A model generated the notes under the pieces. The model was not told the DNA's origin. It saw nothing but the letters and a program-made list of their open reading frames with translations, and did not search any database. A DNA stretch of 23,890 nt from a virus: IMG/VR virus record IMGVR_UViG_3300037584_001556, positions 1 through 23,890 of that record; one strand, 5' to 3'. Positions 3,204 to 6,261 of this stretch are shown piece after piece. Position 1 is the first letter of the stretch. Each line of letters begins with the position of its first letter. The position numbers and the translations under genes were made by a program.

Positions 3204-5168
3204 TTAAATTACCGCCATCTTTCCTTTTTCATTAACTGCTGAATTGATAATATTTACTAAAACACCTCTACTGTTTACTAATAATTCATTGAATCCTCTA
3301 GCATCAACAGTATTAATATTAAAATTTACTGTTACAGGTTTTCCACCACCTAATTGATTATTTGGCACAACAGTACCAGCTTGATCTGGTATAAATAATT
3401 CTGGACCAGCTTCCCCAACTATCGCAGGCTGACCAACTGCTGGACGTCCACCTTTTTCAAAACCTTTTATTTTATTAACTAATCCCATACCAAAAGCAAG
3501 TGACGCACCAACTGCCGCAATGTTAAATGGAAAAGGTATAGATGCAAAAGTTTTTAAAGCACCCTCATAAACACTAATTAATGCTTTTTTAATTGCGTCC
3601 ATTTTAAACATTTCTTTTGCTTTTTTCATAGCTGAACTTACCACAGAGCCAACTAAAGCATTTACTATTTGTTTTATAATAGTTCTTGCTAAATCTTCTA
3701 TTGATAGCTTTCCTGTCATTACAAAATTTGTAAGAGCATCAGTAACATTCTTAAATGCGTTTTTACCTATTTGCTCAAAGTTTTTAGTTACGTCAGAAGC
3801 ATTTTTCATAGCTTCTCCAAATCCCTCTCTAAATCCTTCGTATGCTTTTTCTAACATACCAACTTCATCTCTTTCTTTTTTTAACTGATCTTGAGCTTCT
3901 ATTTGTCTTAACTTTCGTAAGTGAGCAAATTTTGCTAATTCTTCATCTGCTCTTGCCTCTTGTTTCATCAATTCATCAACTTTTGCTAAATAATCGATCA
4001 TGGATTGTTCCATGTGTCCTGTACCTATAATTACAGTATCTAAAGCACTTTTTAATTTTGAAACATCAATATCTTCTGCACTAAAAAACTTTTTTATCAT
4101 TTCCGCAGTGCTTTCAGTTATTCCTCCGAAATCAATTAAATCTAATCCAAGTTTTTTTAAACCAACATTTATTGCATTTTTAATATCATCAAATAATGAA
4201 CCGATCGCTATGATTAATAATTTTGTTTTACTTCCTAACATTAAAAAACCTATAATACCCATAGCTCTCATTTCAGGAGGAAGCATATTTATAAAAGAAA
4301 ATAAATTTCTTACTGAATCTGCAAAAAAATCAAATATAGGTTTCATCATGTCAAGAACTCTTGCAGTTCCTAACATTATTTTTCTTAATGCAGTTACTAA
4401 TGCTTCACTAAATGATTCTGCCGCTTTCTCTAATGAACCAAAGTTTTTTTGTAAAATATTTTCTACTGCTATTAAATTAGATTTTAAGAAGTCAAATGCA
4501 CCAGCTTCCATAGTAGCTTTTTTAAATAAAAATATTTTATCGCCAATCATTGATAAAACACCATCAAAGGTTTTTGCTAAATCATTTGTTGCTTTACCAA
4601 ACCTACCACCAGGACCAAAGACTCTTTCAAATGCTTCTGCTGTTTCTTCTGCTGTAACAGTAGCACCAGCTTTGAACCCTAATAAATCTCTAACACCTCT
4701 TTCTCTAAATAAATCTGCCGCACTAATACCAGCTGATAATGATCTTTGAATTTGTTCTGATGTAGTTCTAAAATCTAATCCTGTAACTGCCGCAACATTA
4801 CCAGTGATTTCCATAATCTTTGCAAGTTCATCTGCATCTTTAGAAACTACTGATAATACACCAGCACCTTGTTGTATTTCATTTAATGAGAATGGAACTT
4901 TACTTGCAAATTTGGCCATCTTATCGAAAGCCTTTGCACCTTCATCTACACTACCAAATAAAAATTTTAATCTTACTTGTAATCTTTCAATATCTCTTGC
5001 AGTATTTATAAAAGATCTTGCAACAATCCCACCACCTAATGCGGCGAAAGCAACTTTTAAATTAAATACAGAATTTTTAAGATTGTTAACTCCTTTAGTG
5101 GCAGTTTGCATTGCCATACGAGTTTTATCTTTAGCGATAATATCTATATTTACTTTTTTTGTAGCCAT
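3204..5168 (-). CDS. Tail tape measure protein
   Basis: This 654-residue protein sets tail length and lies inside the tail tube until DNA ejection. Residues 45-220 match the tape-measure N-terminal domain style, including FINTARDIERLQVRL, FASKVPFSL and ERVFGPGGRFGKATNDL. Hydrophobic segments appear at about 300-326 and 555-570. The C-terminal 573-603 region contains the common tape-measure signature GQPAIVGEAGPELFIPDQAG. At about 1.5 angstrom per residue, the usual ruler relation, the tail would be near 100 nm. The gene starts immediately after the stop of the frameshifted chaperone extension (TAA directly followed by ATG), the standard order G-GT-tape measure. Confidence 0.93.
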   Translation of the reverse strand: MATKKVNIDIIAKDKTRMAMQTATKGVNNLKNSVFNLKVAFAALGGGIVARSFINTARDIERLQVRLKFLFGSVDEGAKAFDKMAKFASKVPFSLNEIQQGAGVLSVVSKDADELAKIMEITGNVAAVTGLDFRTTSEQIQRSLSAGISAADLFRERGVRDLLGFKAGATVTAEETAEAFERVFGPGGRFGKATNDLAKTFDGVLSMIGDKIFLFKKATMEAGAFDFLKSNLIAVENILQKNFGSLEKAAESFSEALVTALRKIMLGTARVLDMMKPIFDFFADSVRNLFSFINMLPPEMRAMGIIGFLMLGSKTKLLIIAIGSLFDDIKNAINVGLKKLGLDLIDFGGITESTAEMIKKFFSAEDIDVSKLKSALDTVIIGTGHMEQSMIDYLAKVDELMKQEARADEELAKFAHLRKLRQIEAQDQLKKERDEVGMLEKAYEGFREGFGEAMKNASDVTKNFEQIGKNAFKNVTDALTNFVMTGKLSIEDLARTIIKQIVNALVGSVVSSAMKKAKEMFKMDAIKKALISVYEGALKTFASIPFPFNIAAVGASLAFGMGLVNKIKGFEKGGRPAVGQPAIVGEAGPELFIPDQAGTVVPNNQLGGGKPVTVNFNINTVDARGFNELLVNSRGVLVNIINSAVNEKGKMAVI

Positions 5169-5692
5169 TTATTTTTTCATCTTTGCAATTCGTTCTTGTC
5201 TATCTCGTTCTTCATTTTGAAGATTAAAATATGCTAACCACATATTAAACTCAACGACCGACATTTGCAAGATTTCTGAAACTGTTTTGTGCAGTTTCTC
5301 GCCTAAAGCAAATATATTATGGAGTTCTACGTTATTTTTTAGTTTTTTTTTGCTTCTACGATATTGGTATCTTGTGTTCCCATTATCTTAGTTGCTACGT
5401 CAGCAATTACATTAGTATCGGCTTTTGTTTTAAATGATAAGATATGACCAGCATTAAACATCTTATCGCCATCTTTAGTTAATGCTTTTTCAATAATAAC
5501 ATCAATTAAAACTATCAAATCAGTAGTCGTAGCACCTTTAAATATTTTTGCCTTTTCTTGCATATTAAAAGGTTTTGTATGTATAGCTTTATCGCCGACT
5601 AAACCCCATTCTGGTACTTCAATTATTTTTGTTTCTTGTGTATTAAAATGATCTCTAATACCTTCAAAATAATCTATTTTTTCATCAGCCAT
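5169..5692 (-). CDS. Tail assembly chaperone GT-type fusion made by -1 frameshift
   Basis: The product reads the 117-residue upstream chaperone frame to its last codon (AAC at 5342-5344), slips back one base, and continues for 57 codons from CTA at 5340-5342 to TAA at 5169-5171. The extension includes ALGEKLHKTVSEIL and 'VVEFNMWLAYFNLQNEERDR', the Trp-Tyr-Phe pattern of T-type chaperone domains that bind the tape measure. The extension has no useful start codon of its own near its beginning, and it ends exactly one base before the tape measure ATG. Expected length is 174 residues. In lambda and many siphophages the G:GT ratio is fixed by the slippage rate; the same use is inferred here. Confidence 0.85.
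5339..5692 (-). CDS. Tail assembly chaperone, short form (gpG-like)
   Basis: This 117-residue soluble protein lies between tail tube and tape measure. KIIEVPEWGLVGD near residue 20-35 and KALTKDGDKMF near 70-80 resemble small tail chaperones that coat the tape measure before tube polymerisation. The ORF ends AAA AAA AAC TAA, so the slippery heptamer touches the stop codon. No Shine-Dalgarno sequence precedes the ATG; the leader is pure A/T after the tail tube stop, 8 bases upstream, so reinitiation is likely. It serves as the zero-frame product of the frameshift pair. Confidence 0.85.
   Translation of the reverse strand: MADEKIDYFEGIRDHFNTQETKIIEVPEWGLVGDKAIHTKPFNMQEKAKIFKGATTTDLIVLIDVIIEKALTKDGDKMFNAGHILSFKTKADTNVIADVATKIMGTQDTNIVEAKKN
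5342..5348 (-). promoter_or_regulatory. -1 ribosomal frameshift slippery heptamer A AAA AAC
   Basis: On the minus strand nine consecutive A residues (5351 down to 5343) are followed by C. In the zero frame this reads GCA AAA AAA AAC TAA, giving the canonical X XXY YYZ heptamer A AAA AAC with the stop codon as the next triplet. Slipping by one base opens a 57-codon frame. CGTAGAA occurs on both sides (5360-5354 and 5332-5326) as a direct repeat. I saw no obvious strong stem-loop just downstream. Confidence 0.85.
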
Positions 5693-5700
5693 AAATTAAA

Positions 5701-6087
5701 TTATACAGTGCCGATAGTTAGACCACCATTACCTTGAACTGTAACTGTTCTTGTAGTTACACCATCAAGAGTTACACCAACTGACATTCCTGTAACGATA
5801 CCTGTTCCAGATAATTTTTGCTCACCTGAACCAGAACCCTCTGGCATAAATTCAAAACTTAAACTTGAGCCTTGAACTAATGTACCTTGAGCAGTATCAT
5901 CATCATCAAAATTCATATCAATAGATGCTGTGAATGTTCCTCTACCAACTACATATGATTTCATAGAATTACCTAAAGCAGTATCCTCTACAATATCGTG
6001 TGTTGTATCAACAGTAAATCCAGTCGCTTTACCAATACTAGTTCCACCAACATGAACTACTGCGTCTTTACCATGATGTGTTGCCAT
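5701..6087 (-). CDS. Major tail tube protein
   Basis: This 128-residue protein has an almost all-beta composition (Gly, Thr, Val rich), the size of siphovirus tail tube subunits. The N-terminus MATHHGKDAVVHVGG followed by ATGFTVDTTHD and later GRGTFTASIDMNFDDDDTAQG follows the usual tube-protein layout: strand, long loop, and an inner-tube 'G..SIDMNFDD' strand. It lies directly upstream of the chaperone pair, as expected. A strong Shine-Dalgarno AAGGAG sits 5-6 bases before the ATG and overlaps the end of the preceding small gene, which suggests high expression. Confidence 0.85.
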   Translation of the reverse strand: MATHHGKDAVVHVGGTSIGKATGFTVDTTHDIVEDTALGNSMKSYVVGRGTFTASIDMNFDDDDTAQGTLVQGSSLSFEFMPEGSGSGEQKLSGTGIVTGMSVGVTLDGVTTRTVTVQGNGGLTIGTV

Positions 6088-6090
6088 ATT

Positions 6091-6261
6091 TTACTCCTTT
6101 GTCTTTTTAATTTCTTTTATAATCTTTTCAGTTTCCTTTGCAACTGAAATATTTTTTTTGTTATCTAAAGTTTGATAACCAAGTTTTGTATAATGTTCTA
6201 CAAAATCTTGGGATACTGTTATCATACTATCGCCCTTTTTCATATTTACATCTTTTGCCAT
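6091..6261 (-). CDS. Small 56-residue tail-module protein
   Basis: This short frame starts with ATG at 6259-6261, overlapping the upstream stop as TAATG, and ends TAA at 6091-6093. The residues include MKKGDSMITVSQDFVEHY and TKLGYQTLDN, then a Lys/Glu-rich tail. A start with Lys-Gly-Asp, a Val-Ser strand and 'LGY' recalls the tiny beta-strand proteins often placed among head-tail genes, but I do not recognise the family. It is charged and has no membrane segment. Its last codons hold the AAGGAG ribosome site of the tail tube gene, linking the two. Coding status is supported by tight packing at both ends. Confidence 0.65.
   Translation of the reverse strand: MAKDVNMKKGDSMITVSQDFVEHYTKLGYQTLDNKKNISVAKETEKIIKEIKKTKE

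Follow-up and report, generated by a model that had tools for sequence, protein, structure and literature searches.

Results

The locus and its overlapping frames

The window, that is, the whole stretch analysed here (23,890 nucleotides of the IMG/VR virus record IMGVR_UViG_3300037584_001556), carries a siphovirus morphogenesis block on its minus strand. In the phage collection the closest relatives of its TerL are those of the pelagiphages HTVC111P, 026P, 112P and 202P (56-58% identity), and a pelagiphage-like host for the virus is therefore plausible. Between the major tail protein and tape measure genes, where a pair of the lambda G/GT type requires it, lies a G-like gene followed by an open extension in the -1 frame. 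The relevant features are listed below.

13748-12534, minus strand: TerL, siphovirus morphogenesis block
12543-11110, minus strand: portal, same block
8740-7901, minus strand: capsid, same block
5701-6087, minus strand: major tail protein (PHROG 10528, E 3.9e-9), directly 5' of the G gene
5339-5692, minus strand: putative G-type tail assembly chaperone, zero frame, 117 aa (PHROG 16513, E 2.5e-7)
5342-5348, minus strand: candidate slippery heptamer A AAA AAC, in phase, abutting the stop (sequence and relatives)
5339-5341, minus strand: zero-frame stop TAA, adjoining the heptamer
5169-5342, minus strand: putative T-type extension, -1 frame, 57 codons and TAA at 5171-5169 (PHROG 25875, dN/dS)
3204-5168, minus strand: tape measure (PHROG 1716, E 1.6e-19; Pfam Tape_meas_lam_C, E 4.9e-14)
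3202-2594, minus strand: distal tail protein, same morphogenesis block
5360-5354 (upstream) and 5325-5331 (downstream), minus strand: CGTAGAA copies, not conserved, probably chance

At the end of the G gene the minus strand reads GAA GCA AAA AAA AAC TAA, with a run of nine A at 5351-5343. The frame entered by a -1 slip contains 57 sense codons, from CTA at 5342 to the AAA ending at 5172, and closes with TAA at 5171-5169 directly before the tape measure ATG at 5168; the full extension can be reached only through a frameshift. The initial annotation had described A AAA AAC at the G stop, a 57-codon -1 frame up to the tape measure ATG, a fusion of 174 residues and a Trp-x-x-Tyr-Phe pattern in the extension. 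The coordinates and lengths check, the fusion length follows from 117 plus 57 residues, and the pattern is present as WLAYF.

Among first-order Markov sequences with the same composition, 0.8% contain an open frame of 57 codons. The heptamer alone is not decisive, because two of the 24 minus-strand genes of the window have an in-phase X XXY YYZ at their stop, namely the G gene and 10953-10681 with A AAA AAA; a chance origin is excluded by the conservation of the site in relatives. At 10953-10681 (minus strand), the A AAA AAA precedes TAA and the -1 frame stays open for 92 codons, running on into the following gene (10681-10406). This site is probably ordinary, as the next gene has its own overlapping ATG. 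Elsewhere on the minus strand, at about 6090-6261, the stop of 6704-6261 is followed by 57 open codons in the -1 frame with no heptamer, and these may be a small gene below the 60-aa cut-off used for open reading frames.

The two CGTAGAA copies that had been said to bracket the slippery region do exist, at 5360-5354 and 5331-5325; a functional role for them found no support. Among 79 members of the window's clade (from the best 80 of 499), six have the downstream copy, two the upstream copy and two both, and of randomly chosen positions in the window 4.9% have a 7-mer common to the adjacent 24-nt flanks. The repeat was rejected as a functional element.

Conservation of the site and the extension

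The window clade was defined as the best 80 of 499 IMG/VR stretches encoding relatives of the G protein. In line with the expectation that the heptamer would be conserved in relatives, A AAA AAC followed by T(A/G)A is kept in 79 of these best 80; the one locus that lacks it (L044) has an apparent deletion near the contig start that takes the slippery run together with the beginning of the extension. Three of the 79 are cut, and in the other 76 the extension is complete, with 58-61 residues when numbering begins at the first AAA in the shifted frame; the overlapping -1 frame, whose absence from homologues had been named as an argument against the frameshift, is open in all 76 (best 80 of 499). 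With L044 left out, the last three G codons are AAA AAA AAC in 66/66 unique sequences (of the 79), while elsewhere in the G gene of these 66 AAC accounts for 52/341 Asn codons and AAA for 492/748 Lys codons. The A run is always A8 (66/79) or A9 (13/79; best 80 of 499). All these counts cover related sequences and are not independent events.

Selection on the extension was estimated from the commonest extension length of each clade, using unique sequences only. In the window clade (55 unique sequences of 57 codons) the -1 frame contains no stops and has a median dN/dS of 0.14, compared with 1.55 and 2.00 in the other two frames, which contain on average 2.6 and 5.5 stops. The shifted-frame medians of the clades introduced below are 0.26 in HTVC202 (47 sequences), 0.22 in HTVC112 (51), 0.17 in CRP811 (34) and 0.31 in AG345 (33), and across clades the other two frames give 0.89-2.78. 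The extension is thus under protein-level purifying selection in the shifted frame only, which in the window clade is the -1 frame.

The extension matches PHROG 25875, a tail assembly chaperone family (E 2.4e-4), and PHROG 337 (tail protein) matches 17 of 32 extensions. Two residues, a Leu and a Trp, never vary among 32 aligned extensions, and the W-x-x-Y-F of the window aligns with W-H-R-F-Y of lambda with weak statistics, as does the extension as a whole with the lambda gpT profile (E 0.0014, probability 17.6%). Comparison of G with the lambda gpG profile gave no detectable similarity, a Pfam search gave nothing for G and nothing above cut-off for the extension, and a search of PDB chain sequences with the G profile gave no match. 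The structure model of G is of moderate confidence (pLDDT 75.8), and its top Foldseek match is the HK97 chaperone 2ob9 (prob 1.00, E 9.9e-3), with no match below 0.001.

The extension stop abuts or overlaps the tape measure start in 58 of the 59 unique window-clade members with an identified start (one further unique member has none identified), and the same holds for most relatives in the window, HTVC202 and HTVC112 clades. In the window itself, the Shine-Dalgarno of the tape measure start is weak (-1.1 kcal/mol). That tape measure translation depends partly on shifted ribosomes is only an idea, because several window genes lack a Shine-Dalgarno and lambda has the same overlap.

A family of -1 sites

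Further loci were fetched with homologues from named phages as queries, keeping the best 80 of each list, and were assigned to clades by their best tblastn hit. The stop codon was located in 453 of 456 loci; of the other three, L081 (the record of the window itself, in opposite orientation) and L095 gave no usable hit, and L124 ends before the stop. Across six -1 clades an in-phase X XXY YYZ is present in 371 of 372 loci and lies directly before the stop in 358 (best-80 lists). The 372 loci include near-duplicates, the unique 60-nt contexts being 43 in the window clade, 52 in HTVC202, 38 in HTVC112, 42 in CRP811, 32 in DSL and 1 in Rc.

Window clade: A AAA AAC, 79/80 (best 80 of 499)
HTVC202 clade: A AAA AAC, 82/82, adjacent to the stop in 72 (best-80 list)
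HTVC112 clade: A AAA AAG, 82/82 (best-80 list)
CRP811 clade: A AAA AAC, 84/84, adjacent to the stop in 84 (best-80 list)
DSL clade: A AAA AAC, 41/41, adjacent to the stop in 38
Rc clade: G GGA AAC, 3/3

The A run is A9 in 81/82 HTVC202 loci, A7 in 82/82 HTVC112 loci, and A7 in 77/84 or A6 in 7/84 CRP811 loci (best-80 lists); in DSL it is A7 in 19/41 and A6 in 22/41, and the three Rc loci have no long run. In CRP811 and DSL the codon supplying the heptamer's first base may be GAA, GCA, GGA, GTA, ATA, TCA or ACA, and its final A is kept in 125/125, as a heptamer for tandem slippage requires. The adjacency to the stop sets these clades apart from the more distant Bcep176, whose heptamer ends 33 nt before the stop; in the SEA-PHAGES data on which PRFect was trained (PMC10885494), the heptamer-to-stop distance averages 26 nt. 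Relatives with 32-34% identity and a -1 extension were also seen in three Rickettsia endosymbiont MAG contigs (L546-L548), with the sites GAA AAA AAC TCT TAA, GAA AAA AAC TAA and GAA AAA AAT TAA.

Candidate stimulatory elements

The window site has no Shine-Dalgarno-like stimulator (-0.7 kcal/mol). The median score of the window clade is -5.6 kcal/mol over 59 sequences; after stricter de-duplication, -4 kcal/mol was reached by 9/25 unique A8 members and 0/6 A9 members, and such a stimulator was rejected as a clade-wide feature. No conserved downstream structure was found in the window clade with RNAalifold (z +0.5 against column shuffles, 30 sequences), and synonymous resampling of 20 of its sequences gave a mean z of -0.57 to -0.04. 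The window's own downstream fold had a z of -1.81 in a first test and is modest against synonymous controls (z -1.5 to -2.3 at lengths of at least 78 nt, +0.9 at 48 nt).

Other clades do carry structures. In the HTVC112 clade (L082, L083, L176-L255), a GC-rich hairpin of 6-7 bp (GCGACC...GGTCGC in HTVC112P) follows A AAA AAG within AT-rich sequence; it begins 5-6 nt downstream of the stop's first base, and 98.6% of cells are paired with no covariation (52 unique sequences). Long-range covarying stems begin 6-7 nt past the heptamer in the CRP811 (L089-L092, L256-L335) and DSL (L094, L336-L375) clades, and their 3' arms lie some 78-108 nt beyond the stop. Counted from the first base of the stop, the 12-bp CRP811 stem pairs positions 6-17 with 97-108; among 34 unique sequences whose extensions have 50 codons, 96.6% of cells are paired and nine show changes in both arms, and for ten sequences with 54-55 codons the corresponding figures are 94.2% and three. 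Registers slid by 1-3 in the 34-sequence set give 28-43% paired and 0-4 double changes. The 9-bp DSL stem pairs 7-15 with 78-86 (97.0% paired, 22 double changes, 33 unique sequences), other registers giving 16-45% and 0-6. Synonymous resampling concurs for both stems, with a mean z of about -2.8 at 108 nt.

A related clade with a +1 extension

The marine AG345 clade comprises AG-345-A17 (L088) and 80 IMG/VR relatives (L377-L456; best 80 of 506). Its extension lies in the +1 frame in 81/81 loci, of which 79 are complete, with the W motif and 61-65 codons, and two are cut (best 80 of 506). Homology to the -1 family holds for both parts, with hhalign E values of 6.2e-15 for G (11 versus 42 sequences) and 8.7e-12 for the extension (5 versus 27 sequences). 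In the G tree AG345 forms one side of a branch with support 100/100, the tree being unrooted, with weak deep branches and two long branches elsewhere.

The +1 frame is blocked 2-4 codons upstream of the zero-frame stop in 81/81 loci, and the core at this place is AAAAGC in 76, AAAAGT in three and AAAAGG in two (best 80 of 506); the shift must therefore fall there. The +1 extension is preceded by a near-invariant nucleotide block, GARGAGGCTAAAGCCGANTTRAAAAG, which ends in AAAAG and is near-invariant even at third codon positions (46 unique sequences). The block pattern occurs in 88 IMG/VR stretches; 82 have the W motif in the +1 frame, five without it are cut short, and one is complete without it. 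The best explanation of the arrangement is a +1 slide of tRNA-Lys on AAAA|GC, from one AAA onto the AAA that overlaps it; this fits every AG345 core, and a -2 slip would find no good re-pairing at TTG AAA AGC.

Discussion

The locus joins the layout of a tail chaperone pair to a conserved heptamer, an open -1 frame under selection and similarity to tail assembly chaperones. Very probably, 5692-5169 encodes a chaperone pair of the lambda G/GT type whose fusion is made by a -1 slip on A AAA AAC; the occurrence of slippage, its rate and the chaperone roles are what we infer from these data. Most ribosomes would read AAA AAC and terminate at UAA, with the 117-aa G protein as their product. The remaining minority would slip one base back on A AAA AAC, where tRNA-Lys and tRNA-Asn would pair anew with AAA AAA, and would translate 57 further codons into a 174-aa G-T fusion. 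In lambda the tape measure is coated by many copies of G, and the rare fusion brings in tube subunits (Atkins 2016, PMC5009743). By analogy, many G subunits of the window virus may bind its tape measure, the T part of the rare fusion may recruit tail-tube subunits, and neither G nor G-T would be expected in the finished virion. A point against this reading is that in E. coli A AAA AAC is reported to be much less slippery than A AAA AAG (PMC5009743).

Two other ways of producing these frames deserve consideration. Runs of eight or nine A are known sites of RNA polymerase slippage, so mRNAs with an added or missing A could join the frames on the nine-A run of the window, and the A8 (66/79) and A9 (13/79) runs of the window clade and the A9 runs of HTVC202 (81/82; best-80 lists) would suit this. 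Homologues at the same position, however, have only A7 or A6 (HTVC112, CRP811, DSL) or G GGA AAC (Rc), the base after the run stays in phase as C or G, and the covarying stems 6-7 nt past the heptamer in two clades have the design of ribosomal stimulators. As the runs shrink to A6-A7 or G3A3 while the heptamer stays, the pattern fits tandem tRNA slippage and does not fit a homopolymer requirement, and polymerase slippage appears improbable, though less firmly so for the window taken by itself. It is more improbable still, to the point of being scarcely credible, that the extension is an independent small gene that has a start of its own, or that a sequencing error has split the frames. Possible internal starts exist in the extension (TTG at residue 28, ATG at 30, 37 and 58 of P0002), but the first 27 extension codons contain no ATG, GTG or TTG and the aligned domain begins well before these starts; a separate gene would also leave the invariant heptamer unexplained, and the identical split recurs in hundreds of contigs.

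Read as a ribosomal -1 site, the window site is an ordinary example of a well-known kind. Chaperone frameshifts are widespread in long-tailed phages, and A_AAA_AAC is used by HCTV-2 (PMC5009743). Lambda gpG/gpG-T likewise lies between the major tail protein and the tape measure and uses -1 slippage; its T has a similar start (37 aligned columns) and a stop that overlaps the tape measure start. It differs in its GGGAAAG, 15 nt before the G stop, whereas A AAA AAC in the window abuts the stop, in a T of about 145 codons against 57, and in G sequences without detectable similarity. The Rhodobacter phages RcCronus and RcRhea are closer, with a homologous G (26% identity), a homologous extension and a heptamer that abuts the stop, although theirs is G GGA AAC TGA against A AAA AAC TAA in the window. 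HTVC026P, 202P, 111P and 112P share the gene order, TerL (56-58% identical), G (31-35%) and the abutting heptamer, HTVC111P and 112P differing by A AAA AAG and the hairpin. As for structure, the HK97 chaperone 2ob9 is the best fold match to the predicted G domain, at a TM-score of about 0.5 and 10-13% sequence identity.

The +1 joining of homologous G and T in AG345 is the most unusual by-product of this analysis. Forward shifting in phage chaperones is already known: the HSTV-2 chaperone shift is very likely +1 (PMC5009743), and among 2718 positive cases of slippery sites in the SEA-PHAGES data, 350 are forward shifts (PMC10885494). In the open-licence literature we found no report of a direction reversal between homologous chaperone pairs.

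An annotation by open reading frame alone had been predicted to leave a false gap over the extension. Such a gap is real in the GenBank records of HTVC026P and HTVC202P, where the region is left empty, and HTVC112P gp41 and HTVC111P gp45 are opposite-strand ORFs annotated over it; none of the four records annotates the frameshift. Four CRP roseophages have nothing annotated between the chaperone and the tape measure, and the word 'frameshift' is absent from the main text of a roseophage study (PMC12629253). At the extension position phi3LM21 has a 111-bp hypothetical gene, and in RcCronus and RcRhea the two homologous parts are annotated together as one joined CDS.

These observations correct the annotation of a marine phage group in which the second chaperone product is missing from several public records. 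It seems likely that selection holds the G-T fusion rather than the mode of joining, so that the slip site, the stimulator and, in one clade, the direction (+1 after GARGAGGCTAAAGCCGANTTRAAAAG) have been exchanged. The homologous sites, with their different heptamers and stimulators and one reversal of direction, form a natural series that makes the evolution of frameshift signals directly testable.
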